Part shown: one piece after another, positions 6,189-12,919 of the stretch
Position numbering within the stretch: position 1 is the stretch's first letter
Layout of the letters: each line of letters begins with the position of its first letter
NCBI GenBank assembly: GCA_017553685.1
Contig: JAFZKH010000009.1
Coordinates: 1-36,944 of the forward strand
Direction: 5' to 3'
DNA from: Bacilli bacterium
GTDB taxonomy: Bacteria > Bacillota_I > Bacilli_A > RF39 > UBA660
Length of the DNA: 36,944 nt
Notes under the pieces: model-generated
Database searches by the model: none
What the model saw: the letters and a program-made list of their open reading frames with translations, nothing else
Told to the model about the DNA's origin: nothing
Program-made: the position numbers and the translations under genes

Positions 6189-6986
6189 CTACCCTAAATA
6201 ACTTTCTAGACTATTATTAACTTCTTCAGATAATAATATATCTTTTTTTTGATCTTCATCAACAGGAGTCTTATCAACTATTTCAAATGGACTAGATTCT
6301 GTTTTAGGAATATCATTAAATTTGATATCTTCTACTTTAGGTTCTTCATCTTCTGATTTTAAAGCATTTATCTTTTCATCTATTCTTCTGATAATAGCTT
6401 CTAAATCTTCATCAATAGATTCTTCTTTAGGTTCATTTTCTTTTTCTAGATTATCTATCTTTTCTTGAATAGATTTAATGATAGCTTCTATTTCAGCATT
6501 TGATTCTTCATCATCTTCATTATCTATTTTATTTATAACAGGTTCATCAGATTCTTTATTTAGGAATGATGTTAATTCAGAAATCTTAGTTTTAATAGCA
6601 CTTGATTTAGCATCAAGTTCTTCTGTCATCTTTCCTTTTTCTTCTTCAAGGGCACCTTTTAAAGCAGAGTTAGTAGAAGCTATTTCTAAAGCTTTATTAA
6701 TAGCATCCATTTTATCTTGATAACTATCATAGATTTGTTTTAATGCTATCTTATAACTTTCTTTTAAGTTTTCTATTTCAGCTTTAGTATCCTCTATCTT
6801 TTTAGCTTCTTCTTCAGCCTTTAATAGTCTTTCTTCGTTTTCCTTTTTAATCTCTTCAATATTAGAGTTTACTTCTTTTTCACCGTCTTTAATTTTTGTA
6901 TCTGCACTATCAAATACATTATAATACCCTTCTAATTCTTTGATTTCTAAATCAGATGTATCAATTAATTCTTCTTTAATATCCAT
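6189..6986 (-). CDS. Acidic coiled-coil protein with an internal repeat
   Basis: About 265 residues from ATG 6986, which has the SD AGAGGTG; the longer in-frame reading to 7043 runs through the promoter. No signal or TM segment, so cytoplasmic. A long coiled coil covers about residues 35-145 (heptad-rich, Glu/Lys-dominated). The C-terminal part is very acidic and contains a repeated helix: EIEAIIKSIQEKIDNLEKEN (165-184) and DLEAIIRRIDEKINALKSED (195-214). The last segment is Pro/Asp-rich and probably disordered. No enzyme motif is visible. A scaffold or cell-division/chromosome-associated role is possible but not shown. Confidence 0.8.
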   Translation of the reverse strand: MDIKEELIDTSDLEIKELEGYYNVFDSADTKIKDGEKEVNSNIEEIKKENEERLLKAEEEAKKIEDTKAEIENLKESYKIALKQIYDSYQDKMDAINKALEIASTNSALKGALEEEKGKMTEELDAKSSAIKTKISELTSFLNKESDEPVINKIDNEDDEESNAEIEAIIKSIQEKIDNLEKENEPKEESIDEDLEAIIRRIDEKINALKSEDEEPKVEDIKFNDIPKTESSPFEIVDKTPVDEDQKKDILLSEEVNNSLESYLG

Positions 6987-7014
6987 CACTAACACCTCTT
7001 TTATTCTATACATA

Positions 7015-7043
7015 AGTATAACAATTTTAAATAGTAAAGTCAA
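7015..7043 (-). promoter_or_regulatory. Strong sigma-A promoter of the coiled-coil operon
   Basis: On the minus strand TTGACT (7038-7043), 17-base spacer, TGT-TATACT (-10 at 7015-7020). Five of six matches in each hexamer plus an extended -10 TG. It lies directly after the terminator of the preceding gene. Confidence 0.85.
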
Positions 7044-7054
7044 TAAATAGACAT

Positions 7055-7083
7055 AAAAAAACTTTAGTAAAACTAAAGTTTTT
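7055..7083 (-). terminator. Intrinsic terminator after the VCBS/FG-GAP-like gene
   Basis: Minus strand AACTTTAG-TTTTA-CTAAAGTT followed by T7. It starts at the stop codon of the gene. Confidence 0.8.
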
Positions 7084-7855
7084 AACGCAAGTATAATCTA
7101 TTAAAATTTGAACCATCAAAGTTATATAGTTCATATTCATTTTGTCCAAATTCGCTATAACTTTTACTTATAATATATTCGTAATTACCGTCACTATTGA
7201 AATCAATAATTCCAAAAAGATCCACAACAGTTTTTTCATCATCATCTGAATTGCTAATGTCTGCTACTATTGAATAGTATTTTCCATCTTTTTCCATAAC
7301 TACTTCACTGAAGTATTCGTTATTATTATAGATTACTCCATACGAATAAATACGTTCAATAATTCCATCGTCATCTATATCGAATGAATTAATACTACCA
7401 AAGTCTAATTTAACTGTCTTAACATCTATATTGTTTTTTAATAATGATGTAACTATTCTACTTATATCATCTATATACTCAGTATTAAAGCCTATTATAG
7501 TTAGTTTTAAGTCATCTGTATATGCAAATGCATATGGATCATCAGATAATTGCTTATTACTTTTATTATACATATGAAGACTATTTTCTAAACCTGAAGA
7601 GTCTTCTTTTTCTGTTTTAATATAACCATCAATTATTTTATTATTATATAAGATTTTTACTTTTTGTTTTTTTACTTTTATATCATCAGTAGATATAGTT
7701 ATATCATTTCCATCAATAGTATATTTAGTAACATTACCAATAAATATTGTCTTTTCAAATTTTTTCCCTGAAAGGAAAAATATTATTGTACCAACAATTA
7801 TACATATAACAACAATTGCAATTAATATATAAATTATTCTTTTTTTATTACTCAT
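7082..7855 (-). CDS. Membrane-anchored protein with VCBS/FG-GAP-like repeats
   Basis: 257 residues. The N-terminal TM helix (about 7-28) lacks a cleavage site, so the remaining 225 residues face outside. Two Asp-rich turns resemble FG-GAP/VCBS Ca-binding loops: FDIDDDGIIERIYSYG (about 176-191) and IIDFNSDGNYEYIISKSY (about 219-236). Between them are strands typical of beta-propeller blades. It starts only nine bases after the stop of the NlpC/P60 surface protein and is therefore probably cotranscribed with it. No catalytic motif is visible. An extracellular binding role is inferred. Confidence 0.7.
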   Translation of the reverse strand: MSNKKRIIYILIAIVVICIIVGTIIFFLSGKKFEKTIFIGNVTKYTIDGNDITISTDDIKVKKQKVKILYNNKIIDGYIKTEKEDSSGLENSLHMYNKSNKQLSDDPYAFAYTDDLKLTIIGFNTEYIDDISRIVTSLLKNNIDVKTVKLDFGSINSFDIDDDGIIERIYSYGVIYNNNEYFSEVVMEKDGKYYSIVADISNSDDDEKTVVDLFGIIDFNSDGNYEYIISKSYSEFGQNEYELYNFDGSNFNRLYLR

Positions 7856-7864
7856 ATTTGCTCC

Positions 7865-10672
7865 CTACCTACCATTATATCTTAATGCAAATGCAAACCC
7901 TTTTTTATTTAAGCTTTGTGTTAAAGAATGTTGAATACTAGTTCCTCCAGTATTATATGTTTTACCATTTCCAGCATATATTTCTACATGTCCAGGATGA
8001 TATGTTTTTCCACCAGCTTTAACAGCAGGTTTATTAGATCTATTTTCAAAAATTACATCACCTGGTTGTAAATCTTTAGTTTTGGTAATAACTGTCCATC
8101 CTTTAGCAACTAAAAATTTAGCCATACTATTAGCAGAGTTAATATTACGTACTGCACTACCACCTGCTACATGGTTAACTTCATAAGCAGTATATATGCC
8201 TGAATCATATAAAGAAAAACTTACTAATGATGCACAAGAATATCCACCAACATATTTTCCATATTTTTGTTTATTACCATATAAGTTTTCAACAGTTTTA
8301 GTAGTACATGCAGGATTAACTACTTTTTTCTTTGTACATTTTCCTTTTTTGTTCTTTTGAACACATTTTGTTCTCTTAGAACACCAGAAAGTTTTACTTC
8401 CAGATTTACTTGTTAATTTTTTAAGTTTTTTAGCAGAATTTGCTAAAGCAGTTCTTTTTGCTTTTATTTCAGACTCAGTTAATACAGGTGTTTCAAGTTC
8501 TGTTATTACTACAAATGGAGATTCTTCCTCCTCTTCTTCCTCTTCCTCTATATCATCATCATCTAAATCATTATTGTTATCTAAATCAACAGTAGTATCA
8601 TCTTCAAGTTCATCTACTTTAACATTTATTGTTACAACATCATATGTGTTTTCATCTAATGTTGCTATTATATTAATGGTATTATCTCCATCAGTTATTT
8701 CATTAAATCCTTCACCAGAAATAACATCTACACCATCAGTTACAGTTTCAGTATCTATTTCTAAGTTACTAGTTCCATTTGGTACTTCAATATCTATTAC
8801 TTTATCAGTTGCATCATAATCAAGCTGTTTGCCATTAATAGTTACACTCTTAATTAAGTTTGGAGATTCTTTACTAGTAGTATCTGTTTCAACAGTTTTA
8901 ACTAATGTTGAAGTATTATTACTACTGTTACTCTTAGTATCAACAGTTGTAGTTTTTGTTGTAGTATTTGTTGATGAACTCTTATCTACTTTTTGATGAA
9001 TATCAGTTCCATTACCTACTACTACACATTTTAAATAAGTCATATTCTTAACAGAACTATTCTTAGATAATGTATTAATTAATATATGAATTAATATAGG
9101 AGTTATTATTAATAGTATTAATGCTATTAATCTTCTAAATAATTTTGATCTAAATTTAGATACTTTTTTAGGATCTCCACTCATAATAGATCTTATTAAA
9201 TCAAATGTTACAAATAACATAGTAAGAATAGGAGCAGTTATAGTAATTGCCCTATATATAATATGAAATGCATTTAAATTATCACACTCAATTTGTGCTT
9301 CTTTATTATCTCTTTCATCATAGAAATCAGGTACACCATTATAACCACTATGAGTTATATTTTTACAATACTCAGTTTTGACTTTATTTCCATCTTTATC
9401 TTGTGTTTCTATAGTTTTACATTGTTTATATGTAACATCTAATGCAGATTTCTTACATTGTGTCCAATCCCATTCAGTTAATTCAAATTCACAACCTAGC
9501 TTTTTCTTTGTCCAAACAGTAGTATTATACATTGGATGAACTCCAGGTAAAAAAGTATATCTATAGCAGTGATAATTTCCATCTTTACTATCACCAGTAT
9601 AACATGATTTAAGTGCATTAGTTTTTGACATTCCCATTAATAGTAGTCTTGCAAAATCATCTTTTCCTTCTTCTCTATTTTCATCTTCTATAGTATTATC
9701 TATTACTGTTGAATCTAAACCTGATTCAGCAGCAAGTCCTGAACATGTTTGAGAATCAGTTATTAAATTACCACTACTATCTACTAGGAAATAAACATTA
9801 CTCTGATTTCCACTATATGCAATTTTATCTAATTCTTCAAAAGTAATTGTACTATCATCAGCATATGGAAATCCGTCTATTACAATTTTTCCTTCTTCTG
9901 CATCACCACGTCTACTTGGAGAACTAGTTATACTAACACCACTAAAATTAATAATTGCTTTTTTATCAGAATCGAATTCTTTTACTAAAGTATTATATGT
10001 GGAATCATCTTTATCTCCTGCACCTCTATAGTCAACAATAAACATTGGATAACCATAGTAAACTGCTAAAGGATATGCAGAATCTTGTCTATACATTGTA
10101 GCAGCATAGCAAAATTGTGTATCATCTTTAAAATCACTATATATATCATTTTTTATTGTCTGCATTTCAGAATCTGTATAGAATTCAGAATTACTTTTAG
10201 CCTCTACAAATAATATTTGATTATGATATTTTCCACTACCAGTACTTGATGTTATCATAGATGCAGCTATACAGTCTTCCATTGTTGAAAAATACTTATT
10301 TGACTCAGATATTTTTGAACTCCAATTTGAATAAGAATGATATACTGTTTTTTTAATCTCAGAATCACTAAGACTAATTAACGTTTTATTAAAATCAAAG
10401 AAACAGTTTGGACTATCTAAAAACGCATCTTTATTATTATATATACTATCAAAACATCTAGGAGTAGGTTTATCAGTTGAATAACCAGCATACATTCTAT
10501 ATGAATAGTAAGGATCATATGAATTAGCACCTTCACTATCATTTGCTAGTAAATAGCAATAATATCCATCTTTAGATTCACTTAATTTTATACTATCTGT
10601 TTTAATAGCACTAACACCTATTGGCAATAAAACTACTAAACAAAGTAATAAATACTTGAATTTCTTCTTCAT
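7865..10672 (-). CDS. Large surface protein: Cys-rich ectodomain, two-TM pilin-like module, cadherin-like sandwich, NlpC/P60 hydrolase
   Basis: About 935 residues from ATG 10672, preceded by AGGGTGAT; the in-frame GTG at 10681 lies inside that SD. Order: signal peptide (about 1-22, ending VSA); N-terminal Cys-containing ectodomain (23-340); Cys-rich module (about 350-465) shared with the next upstream gene; two TM helices (about 471-494 and 514-535) around a basic loop SGDPKKVSKFRSKLFRR; Thr/Ser linker; cadherin-like beta-sandwich (about 605-687); Asp/Glu run (about 696-717); basic Cys-rich segment; C-terminal NlpC/P60-type papain-like domain with Cys813 (GGYSCASL) and His895 (PGHVEIYAG). Both ends should face outside. 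It probably cleaves peptidoglycan peptides, though DCSG is altered to SCAS. The TM pair resembles VirB2/TrbC-type pilin segments. Confidence 0.85.
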   Translation of the reverse strand: MKKKFKYLLLCLVVLLPIGVSAIKTDSIKLSESKDGYYCYLLANDSEGANSYDPYYSYRMYAGYSTDKPTPRCFDSIYNNKDAFLDSPNCFFDFNKTLISLSDSEIKKTVYHSYSNWSSKISESNKYFSTMEDCIAASMITSSTGSGKYHNQILFVEAKSNSEFYTDSEMQTIKNDIYSDFKDDTQFCYAATMYRQDSAYPLAVYYGYPMFIVDYRGAGDKDDSTYNTLVKEFDSDKKAIINFSGVSITSSPSRRGDAEEGKIVIDGFPYADDSTITFEELDKIAYSGNQSNVYFLVDSSGNLITDSQTCSGLAAESGLDSTVIDNTIEDENREEGKDDFARLLLMGMSKTNALKSCYTGDSKDGNYHCYRYTFLPGVHPMYNTTVWTKKKLGCEFELTEWDWTQCKKSALDVTYKQCKTIETQDKDGNKVKTEYCKNITHSGYNGVPDFYDERDNKEAQIECDNLNAFHIIYRAITITAPILTMLFVTFDLIRSIMSGDPKKVSKFRSKLFRRLIALILLIITPILIHILINTLSKNSSVKNMTYLKCVVVGNGTDIHQKVDKSSSTNTTTKTTTVDTKSNSSNNTSTLVKTVETDTTSKESPNLIKSVTINGKQLDYDATDKVIDIEVPNGTSNLEIDTETVTDGVDVISGEGFNEITDGDNTINIIATLDENTYDVVTINVKVDELEDDTTVDLDNNNDLDDDDIEEEEEEEEESPFVVITELETPVLTESEIKAKRTALANSAKKLKKLTSKSGSKTFWCSKRTKCVQKNKKGKCTKKKVVNPACTTKTVENLYGNKQKYGKYVGGYSCASLVSFSLYDSGIYTAYEVNHVAGGSAVRNINSANSMAKFLVAKGWTVITKTKDLQPGDVIFENRSNKPAVKAGGKTYHPGHVEIYAGNGKTYNTGGTSIQHSLTQSLNKKGFAFALRYNGR

Positions 10673-10744
10673 TAGTATCACCCTATTTTAATTATATAAT
10701 ATTTCGTATAAAAATAACACTATTCTTTTATTTTATTTACAAAA

Positions 10745-10774
10745 GAAAAAACTTTAGTATTTTACTAAAGTTTT
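10745..10774 (-). terminator. Intrinsic terminator after the C39-like gene
   Basis: Minus strand AAAACTTTAGTA-AAA-TACTAAAGTTTT followed by a T-rich tract. The twelve-base stem includes the end of the coding region. Confidence 0.8.
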
Positions 10775-12491
10775 ATTTTATTACCGAAGCATAATTATAT
10801 CCTTTTTTAGAACAAGGATGATTAGAAATAATTATACCGTTACCATTTATTTTTCTACTAGTACTTGTAATTGGTTTAAGTAAGCCGGTCCAACTATCTA
10901 GTATTAGAAAGTCCTTGTAAGAAGTTCCTGTTGAACCCTCTTTAAATCCAACTACTGTTACAAAGTGTCTCGAATATGTACCTTTAGGCGCAGAGCATTT
11001 CTTATTACCACCTTTACATCCAGTAACATTAATAATTACAGGATGTCCACTTCTTACATTTTTAATAACGTATTGAACAAAACTTGATTCATCTTTAAAA
11101 CACTTACCACCATATCCAAATGAAGTAGAACAACCATTTGAAGAATTATTACATTTACCTTTACCTTTTGAAATATTCGCAGTAGTAACGTCTTTCCCTT
11201 TATATAATCCACATGCTTGAAGAGTAGATATACCTCCACAACAACCACCTGGATTACTTATATTAGAATATTGTTTTTTATGACTATCTAAATAATCTTG
11301 ATAAATATGATTCTTATGAATCATTTTTTGATATCCTACTACTCCACCAGGATATTTTGTATCTACAACAACATAGTTTTTTCCACTATATTTAATAACC
11401 TTTGATCCTTTAGCTTTTCCATACGTTTTTGTAGATGTTGTTGTCTTTGTATTGGTATTTGTTTTTGTGGTTGTATTTGTTTTAGTTTCTACTTTCTTTT
11501 CTCTTGTTACTTTTAAAGTAATAGTATCATAATTAATATTATCCGCTGTAGCAACAATTTTAATAGTATTACTTCCTTCTTTTAATTCTTGAGTTCCTGT
11601 ACCTGAAATAATTTGAGCATTATCAGAATTAAGTGTTGCAGTAACATCTATACTAGTTTTAGAATTTGGAACAGTAATAGTATAAGACTTAGTAGTAGTC
11701 TTAAATCCAGATACTTCTACTCCATCTACTTTTACACTTGTAATTAATCTTGGTTTTTCTATTTCTTTTGGTTGTAAAGTAACTGTAGGATCTGTCTTAA
11801 CTGTATCAGTATCATTATAACCAAGTACTACACATTTAAGCATTTTAGAATCTTTAATAACATTATTTTTTGATAATGTATTAACAAGCAAATGAATTAA
11901 TATTGGAAGAACTATTAATACTAATAATGCTATTATTCTTCTTAATAATTTAGATCTAAATTTCGATACTTTTTTAGCATCTCCAGAAACAATAGATCTT
12001 ACTAAATCAAATGTTACAAATAATATTGTTAATATAGGAGCCATTATAGTTATTGCTCTATATAGAATATGAAACGATTTTAAATTATCACACATAATAT
12101 CTTTATCTTTACTTACTCTTTTATCATAGAAATCAGGAGTACCATTATAACCACTATGTGATATATTTCTACAATACTTATCTTTACATTGTTCATATGT
12201 AATATCTAATGCTGCACTCTTACAAGATTCATAATCCCAATCAGTTAATTCAAAACCACATCCCATAGTTTTACTTGTCCATACTGTTGTATTATACATA
12301 GGAGTAGTTATACCTGGTGAAAAAGTATATCTATAACAATGATATGCATCTGAGTCTCCTGTTACACAAGCATCTATAGCCTCTGATTTAGTCATTTTAT
12401 TTGTTAATTTTCCAAAATCATCTTCTGCACTAACCCCAATAGGTATTAATATCAAAACAAATAATATTAAATACTTTATTATTCTTTTCAT
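10773..12491 (-). CDS. Surface protein: Cys-rich module, two-TM pilin-like segment, cadherin-like sandwich, C39-like cysteine peptidase
   Basis: About 572 residues from ATG 12491 (SD AGGTGAT; the upstream in-frame GTG 12500 is inside the SD). Order: signal peptide (1-22); Cys-rich module (about 30-135) with CYRYTF, MYNTTVW and HSGYNG in common with the downstream paralogue; two TM helices (about 147-167 and 185-205) with basic loop; cadherin-like beta-sandwich (about 250-330); Thr/Lys linker; C-terminal papain-like domain resembling peptidase C39 family 2, with a Cys pair in GGCCGGIS (about 417-418), His509 (SRHFVTVVGF) and Asp532 (LILDSWTG). It probably cleaves proteins or peptides outside the membrane. 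Same architecture as its neighbour but a different enzyme at the C-terminus. Confidence 0.83.
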   Translation of the reverse strand: MKRIIKYLILFVLILIPIGVSAEDDFGKLTNKMTKSEAIDACVTGDSDAYHCYRYTFSPGITTPMYNTTVWTSKTMGCGFELTDWDYESCKSAALDITYEQCKDKYCRNISHSGYNGTPDFYDKRVSKDKDIMCDNLKSFHILYRAITIMAPILTILFVTFDLVRSIVSGDAKKVSKFRSKLLRRIIALLVLIVLPILIHLLVNTLSKNNVIKDSKMLKCVVLGYNDTDTVKTDPTVTLQPKEIEKPRLITSVKVDGVEVSGFKTTTKSYTITVPNSKTSIDVTATLNSDNAQIISGTGTQELKEGSNTIKIVATADNINYDTITLKVTREKKVETKTNTTTKTNTNTKTTTSTKTYGKAKGSKVIKYSGKNYVVVDTKYPGGVVGYQKMIHKNHIYQDYLDSHKKQYSNISNPGGCCGGISTLQACGLYKGKDVTTANISKGKGKCNNSSNGCSTSFGYGGKCFKDESSFVQYVIKNVRSGHPVIINVTGCKGGNKKCSAPKGTYSRHFVTVVGFKEGSTGTSYKDFLILDSWTGLLKPITSTSRKINGNGIIISNHPCSKKGYNYASVIK

Positions 12492-12557
12492 TAGTATCAC
12501 CTATTATAATTATATATTAATATTATAATAAATAAAATAAGTTTTTTATTAGTATAC

Positions 12558-12610
12558 AAAAAAAAAGACGTTAGTAATTATACTAATTCTAGTATAACTA
12601 CTAATGCGTC
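12558..12610 (-). terminator. Terminator of the S10-spc-alpha operon, overlapping the rplQ 3' end
   Basis: The last codons of rplQ form the left arm. On the minus strand GACGC-ATTAGTAGTTATACTA, loop GAAT, then TAGTATAATTACTAACGTC and nine T. The stem is about 19 bases with one mismatch and a small bulge. The stop codon TAA lies in the right arm. Confidence 0.85.
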
Positions 12611-12919
12611 GTCTCCTTTTCTTTCGTCTAATTTAATAATTCTAGTATAACCACCGTTTCTTGTTTCATAACGTTTATTTAAATCATTAAATAATTTATT
12701 AACAACTGTAGTATCGTTATGTAAGAATGCAAGTGCTTTTCTTCTAGAAACTAAATCGCCATTCTTTCCATATGTAATCATTTTATCTACAAATTTTCTA
12801 ACTTCTTTTGCTCTTTCTTCTGTAGTTTTAATAGATTCATTTAGGATAACAGCTTTTGTTAAATTTGCAAGCATACTTCTTCTATGTTTGCAGTCTCTTC
12901 CAAGTTTTCTATATGCCAT
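12578..12919 (-). CDS. rplQ: 50S ribosomal protein L17
   Basis: 113 residues beginning [20 protein letters not shown], the L17 signature, with the C-terminal GGYTRIIKL and [11 protein letters not shown]17 sits near the peptide tunnel exit on the 50S subunit. It is the short bacterial form. Last gene of the operon, 14 bases after rpoA, with the SD GGAGG. Its final ten codons are also part of the terminator stem, which constrains both protein and RNA. Confidence 0.98.

Follow-up and report, generated by a model that had tools for sequence, protein, structure and literature searches.

Tandem genes of a Bacilli bacterium fuse a T4SS pilin-like module to two different predicted hydrolases

According to a 2025 FEMS review, VirB2 is absent from the T4SSs of Gram-positive bacteria, the Patescibacteria being the sole exception (PMC12857230). 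For these bacteria, the available part of a T4SS study that made use of PF18895 describes arrays of 2-11 pilins and does not mention enzyme fusions (PMC12102498). The proteins analyzed here resemble the VirB2-like pilins (PF18895), as portrayed in the review and in that part of the study, by their two-TM pilin domain and by their several divergent copies per genome. The setting is also similar, a chromosomal T4SS in a small-genome monoderm, and the host genome is without a PF03432 relaxase. They differ from the Patescibacteria pilins by their occurrence in Bacillota, their large Cys-rich ectodomains and their C-terminal enzymes. VirB1-type hydrolases such as CwlT of the Tn916 family, TraG of pIP501 and PrgK likewise contain NlpC/P60, CHAP or M23 domains, are membrane-bound and are presumed to open the wall locally. 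However, these are separate proteins, whereas in our proteins a pilin-type subunit carries the enzyme, whose catalytic family is swapped between species. Evolved VgrG/Hcp proteins of T6SSs and polymorphic toxins share with our proteins the combination of a secretion-machine part with exchangeable C-terminal enzymes, but the machine is a different one, the enzymes found here are almost only of predicted wall-active types and their delivery is putative. Matches of the module and of VirB6 to proteins of the Mycoplasma ICE (Mbov_0395/0396, MMCAP2_0566; NF045849, NF045889, NF045848) were weak and all below the cut-offs, and the VirB4 of the host is closest to NF045975 (Mbov_0397, also of the Mycoplasma ICE). 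Unlike this ICE, for which no enzyme fusions are known, the host possesses a vertically inherited chromosomal locus with a split VirB4. A study on related uncultured Bacilli orders makes no mention of secretion or pilins (PMC10868615). In agreement with the preliminary description of the locus, whose author knew of no family of this design, a literature search that left most subscription journals uncovered found neither such a family nor any pilin-hydrolase fusion.

The window, i.e. the whole stretch of DNA that was analyzed (36,944 nucleotides), belongs to the draft, metagenome-derived genome G000 (0.95 Mb, nine contigs, 94.7% complete) of a gut-type bacterium with a small genome. The ribosomal alpha operon (rplQ at 12578-12919) precedes P0002 and P0001, which are followed by P0003 and a coiled-coil protein gene:

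10773-12500, reverse strand: P0002, 575 amino acids, start codon GTG
11814-12407, reverse strand: shared module of P0002 (Cys-rich ectodomain and two TM helices)
11865-12098, reverse strand: pilin-like core of P0002; its basic loop (11949-11987) reads SGDAKKVSKFRSK
11499-11738, reverse strand: cadherin-like beta-sandwich of P0002, residues 255-334 (PF12733, 24.0 bits, cut-off 24.2)
10776-11375, reverse strand: C39-like domain of P0002, assigned by Pfam PF13529 and motifs
7865-10681, reverse strand: P0001, 938 amino acids
9008-9646, reverse strand: shared module of P0001
9059-9292, reverse strand: pilin-like core of P0001; its basic loop (9143-9181) reads SGDPKKVSKFRSK
7868-8539, reverse strand: NlpC/P60-like domain region of P0001, assigned by predicted fold and motifs
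7082-7855, reverse strand: P0003, extracytoplasmic, with one TM segment and two D-x-D-x-D-G-like motifs
6189-7043: coiled-coil protein gene, next after P0003

The end of P0002 given previously (12491) corresponds to an in-frame ATG, while the GTG start extends the gene to 12500. P0002 consists of a signal segment, the Cys-rich ectodomain, the two-TM pilin-like hairpin, the cadherin-like domain, a Thr-rich linker and a C39-like cysteine peptidase. In P0001, the signal segment is followed by an ectodomain of its own (~340 amino acids), the Cys-rich/two-TM module, a diverged cadherin-like domain, an acidic linker and an NlpC/P60-like enzyme. The two adjacent genes had been reported to share a highly similar block, and a local alignment of residues 340-703 of P0001 with residues 26-350 of P0002 indeed scored 851, compared to 86 for the best of 100 shuffles. 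Identity amounts to 68-71% in the module core and to 31-38% in the cadherin-like region; the alignment stops short of both enzyme ends. The shared module comprises about 210 residues and contains every motif listed before (CYRYTF, MYNTTVW, HSGYNG, SGD(P/A)KKVSKFRSK) as well as two hydrophobic segments flanking the basic loop. The cadherin-like domain said to follow it was recovered in P0002 marginally below the PF12733 cut-off, and in P0001 as the diverged counterpart. Many cadherin-like repeats of the kind present in P0002 also occur in a 1846-aa surface protein of the same genome (L023:268-5808, contig C7). In G010, a sister species, both fusions are located at the same place (L028, L056, L141). 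The G002 counterpart of P0001 (L047:427-2190) possesses the ectodomain and the module but ends just past the second TM helix, without cadherin-like domain and enzyme.

The assignment of the two enzymes to different families was upheld. The C-terminus of P0002 matches Peptidase_C39_2 (PF13529) with 32.1 bits (cut-off 24) and contains candidate Cys, His and Asp residues within GGCCGGIS (11226-11249), RHFVTVVGF (10944-10970) and LILDSW (10890-10907). The motifs CC, RHF and (L/V/I)DSW are kept in the relatives L028, L022 and L139. By profile and motifs, this domain is predicted to be a C39_2 peptidase; a full-length model of P0002 was poor (pLDDT 54), and the fold search gave no match above noise. 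The enzyme of P0001 had no Pfam match, and since a B3 domain match on this protein was spurious, the enzyme was assigned by its fold instead. With an AlphaFold2 model of residues 715-938 (pLDDT 65 overall, 77-90 in the best blocks), the first eight Foldseek rows were all NlpC/P60 hydrolases (probability 0.80-1.00), and VIA-align against NlpC/P60 proteins yielded Z scores of 10-12.3 over 108-129 residues, the best alignment (Z 12.3) covering 126 residues at 2.9 Å rmsd. Candidate Cys and His residues, located in GGYSCASLV (8222-8248) and HPGHVEIYAG (7970-7999), are invariant in seven homologues. The model thus predicts an NlpC/P60 fold with Cys and His for the C-terminus of P0001.

Within the host genome, searches with the module revealed a 423-aa pilin-C39 paralogue on contig C2 and a stand-alone copy of 224 amino acids at ~124 kb of contig C9 (L021:4829-5503), ~110 kb distant from the two fusion genes. 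The latter is surrounded by a complete T4SS-like gene set, which lies on the same contig as P0001 and P0002, ~100-114 kb away. The statement that no secretion-system gene is nearby therefore holds true for the window but not for the contig, and it had been missed that the module has a paralogue among the genes of a complete T4SS locus on this chromosome. The stand-alone module adjoins virB6, being encoded directly upstream of it. Besides the VirB6/TrbL-like protein (852 aa; NF045848, E 6e-15), the locus encodes a small two-TM pilin (125 aa) and a two-TM protein rich in Cys (426 aa). A small membrane protein of PrgI size (101 aa), which had no profile match, owes its assignment solely to its position. 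VirB4 (NF045975, E 1e-106) comes in two parts of 181 and 596 aa, VirD4 was identified by NF045973 (306 bits, over the cut-off, 4e-91), and a protein of 1306 aa contains an M23 domain that scored 28.0 bits (cut-off 28.7). The split VirB4 corresponds to two overlapping genes (G000:C9:118514-120846; L027:12515-14305 and L021:1302-1847). No relaxase was detected in the locus, nor in the genome using PF03432, the sole relaxase family searched. In eight species of the genus the locus is flanked by trmL, and in many genera virB6 is preceded by a small pilin and an ectodomain-pilin, in this order. The stand-alone module is about 67-68% identical to that of P0002, the Cys-rich ectodomain included. The modules of P0001 and of P0002 grouped separately in a small tree, next to the T4SS-locus copies (support 95/98 and 83/91), suggesting that the duplications are older than the split of these species. 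Identity and tree strongly support paralogy between the module and a gene in the chromosome's T4SS locus. Since P0001 and P0002 themselves are located outside this locus, they lack one attribute of VirB1, to be encoded within it.

The proposed similarity of the two-TM segment to VirB2/TrbC-type pilins was corroborated by the T4SS_pilin profile PF18895 (cut-off 26.6 bits), to which the C2 paralogue (L022) scored 39.1, L137 32.6 and L140 29.7 bits. The stand-alone module (17.0 bits) and the modules of P0001 and P0002 stayed below this cut-off. As in T4SS pilins, there are two TM helices and a short basic loop. The loop carries a net positive charge in all small pilins and in 59 of the 63 fused cores (see below), and Cys residues border both outer flanks of the core in almost every small pilin, ectodomain-pilin and fusion. 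From this inferred topology both ends, ectodomain and enzyme, are predicted to be extracytoplasmic. None of the searches assigned the module to a known family other than pilins; no solved relative emerged from a PDB profile search with the core, and nothing useful from PHROGs. An origin from a mobile element was discarded, as no relative of the module was found in viral contigs, plasmids and phages by searches that reach close relatives only. Together, these similarities strongly support that the two-TM core and T4SS pilins are homologous.

To survey the core, a profile of it (A4) was applied to a family sample of 145 genomes from 144 genera, 130 of which were positive. The core was also detected in 28 of 247 genomes of the class and in 17 of 392 genomes of the phylum, all 28 and all 17 from the host's family, and it was absent from ~370 sampled genomes of the phylum's other families. 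VirB4 was present in 123 of the 145 family genomes, mostly in the same split form of ~600 aa; this short split VirB4, recurring in most of the family, is a mark of one vertically inherited T4SS. Core and VirB4 were both found in 117 genomes, only the core in 13, only VirB4 in six and neither in nine, an association (Fisher p 2e-5) that is not corrected for kinship. The 22 genomes without VirB4 remained negative with a second query. In nine of the 13 that contain pilin cores VirD4 was identified, so VirB4 may have been lost there or may be missing from the assembly.

The search for C-terminal partners suggested in the preliminary description disclosed an exchange far wider than the two cases of the window. 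In the fetched proteins, a sample and no census, a core followed by at least 150 residues was found in 63 proteins from 29 genomes and 18 genera, PF18895 matching 21 of them at E<=1e-3; two more proteins with Cys-rich tails only were left out. Pfam assigned CHAP to eight, C39_2 to eight, NlpC/P60 to five, M23 to four and GDSL to three fusions, while esterase/S9, an endolysin-like domain, D,D-carboxypeptidase S11, lysozyme, glucosaminidase, L,D-transpeptidase, GH99 and GH114 occurred once or a few times. By these assignments, the fused domains are mostly of peptidoglycan-active types. A pilin core with a GH99-like glycosidase (L194:1751-3313, G079) is among the few fusions without obvious peptidoglycan action. 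Genome G079 has at least ten pilin-enzyme genes. A further weak core match of the host itself (L189:2919-3839, contig C6) carries a C-terminal domain of ~200 amino acids.

For P0001 and P0002, a pilin origin and an extracytoplasmic enzyme are well supported by the sequence comparisons. We further propose, with about even confidence, that both are subunits of the pilin type which display wall-active enzymes on the outside of the membrane, probably together with the T4SS. The pilin-like protein with an ectodomain whose gene immediately precedes virB6 would have been duplicated, and an extracytoplasmic peptidoglycan-active enzyme added. The fused subunits may sit at the T4SS or be assembled by it, and their NlpC/P60 and C39-like domains could open the cell wall, the cell's own or that of a partner, at the channel, so that the job of the VirB1 hydrolase would be done as part of a pilin. 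In solved conjugative pili, the pilin has its two ends on the outside and its basic loop toward the lumen, an arrangement sterically compatible with large domains at both ends. In favor of a function coupled to the T4SS, the fold matches of the P0001 enzyme include CTn1-Orf17 (4hpe) and CTn7-Orf16 (9ubf), hydrolases of Tn916-like elements that work with T4SSs. The proposal is also favored by the recurrent gene order before virB6, the co-occurrence of core and VirB4, the predominance of peptidoglycan-active types among the fused domains and the enzyme swap beside hpf (see below). On the other hand, a protein with an M23 domain is already encoded in the T4SS locus, and the sub-threshold Pfam scores of the P0001 and P0002 modules also count against this proposal.

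A tenable though less probable explanation is that these proteins are membrane-anchored housekeeping wall enzymes, the pilin core being a mere two-TM anchor on the outside of the membrane without any T4SS role. Several observations fit this explanation and speak against T4SS coupling. P0001 and P0002 are encoded behind the ribosomal alpha operon and not in the T4SS operon, and the enzyme mix is wide, D,D-carboxypeptidase and L,D-transpeptidase included. Fusions are present in G046, G104 and G134, in which neither VirB4 nor VirD4 was found in searches; G104, with at least eight fused genes, is 96% complete. Moreover, Asp31 and Arg54 are kept in 91-95% of small and ectodomain pilins (small ~95%) but only in 55% of fused cores, being lost in 45%. 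It is therefore probable, judging from genomes and residues, that some fusions are now plain membrane anchors. By contrast, P0001, P0002 and the hpf-locus fusions discussed below retain the pilin-typical Pro, Asp and Arg, and in P0001 and P0002 the Cys-rich ectodomain known from the T4SS subunit is present in full. Besides, unrelated anchors would do equally well, yet the pilin core was re-used repeatedly and co-occurs with VirB4.

A pilin-enzyme gene is located beside hpf in 12 genomes, 11 of the genus and G127. Its enzyme is C39-like in G000 and G002, NlpC/P60-like in five genomes (by homology to the P0001 domain), CHAP in two (Pfam) and of a second C39-like type in three (by motif). G000 and G010 share 100% identity in hpf and 78% in the pilin part, but beyond about residue 225 identity drops to 16-24%; in the pair G000/G002, identity is 76-77% in either half. 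When the N-terminal half was used for a search across the family, mostly pilin cores were retrieved, full-length matches being confined to the genus and G127. As judged from these alignments, enzymes are exchanged at this locus on a constant pilin part. It might be argued that the proteins are polymorphic antibacterial effectors, in which the pilin part acts as a trafficking domain, the T4SS carries exchangeable wall-degrading enzymes onto neighbours and a P0003-type protein protects the producer. We consider this quite unlikely, even though different enzymes following the same pilin part at one locus, with a sharp breakpoint after residue ~200, fit it. The same applies to tandem fused genes with different enzymes, four in L191 (G079:C1:75500-85500; GDSL, NlpC and C39 in one protein, two others) and those of L235 (G104:C1:222500-233000; GDSL, GH114-like, two more), to the faster evolution of the enzyme (P0002 of G000 and G010: 43% identity versus 82% in the module) and to the fold of the P0001 enzyme, which VIA-align also found in the T6SS amidase effectors Tae1/Tae3. 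However, nucleases, deaminases or other non-wall toxins were not encountered among the 63 fusions.

The P0003-type gene allows a similar ambivalence. It follows the pilin-enzyme gene at nine of the 12 hpf loci and at two loci of G000 (window 7082-7855; L022:4890-5624), and in the closest hpf trio its product is 68% identical where the enzyme is the same versus 45-49% where it differs. This co-variation is seen in a few pairs and missing in others, no P0003-type gene was detected at three hpf loci, and the P0003-type proteins form one conserved family whatever the enzyme class, unlike typical immunity proteins. A partner or an immunity protein are both possible. Finally, misassembly or chance similarity, conceivable for a draft genome, has a negligible probability and was ruled out, because the fusions, far from being absent in close relatives, are conserved in the independently assembled MAG G010 and the design recurs in 18 genera.

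Taking pilin-type subunits that present wall-active enzymes as the preferred reading, a bolder version can be formulated, which we regard as rather doubtful: a family-wide, vertically inherited T4SS whose VirB2-type pilins are the socket for exchangeable wall-degrading enzymes shown to other cells, i.e. an "evolved pilin" used as weapon or feeding device. The pilin domain gives a sequence handle for finding such wall enzymes. If true, this would be the second Gram-positive case of VirB2, near-universal in a family of Bacillota, with the pilin domain as a socket for many wall enzymes, and it would change the view of how Gram-positive T4SSs cross or attack the cell wall.
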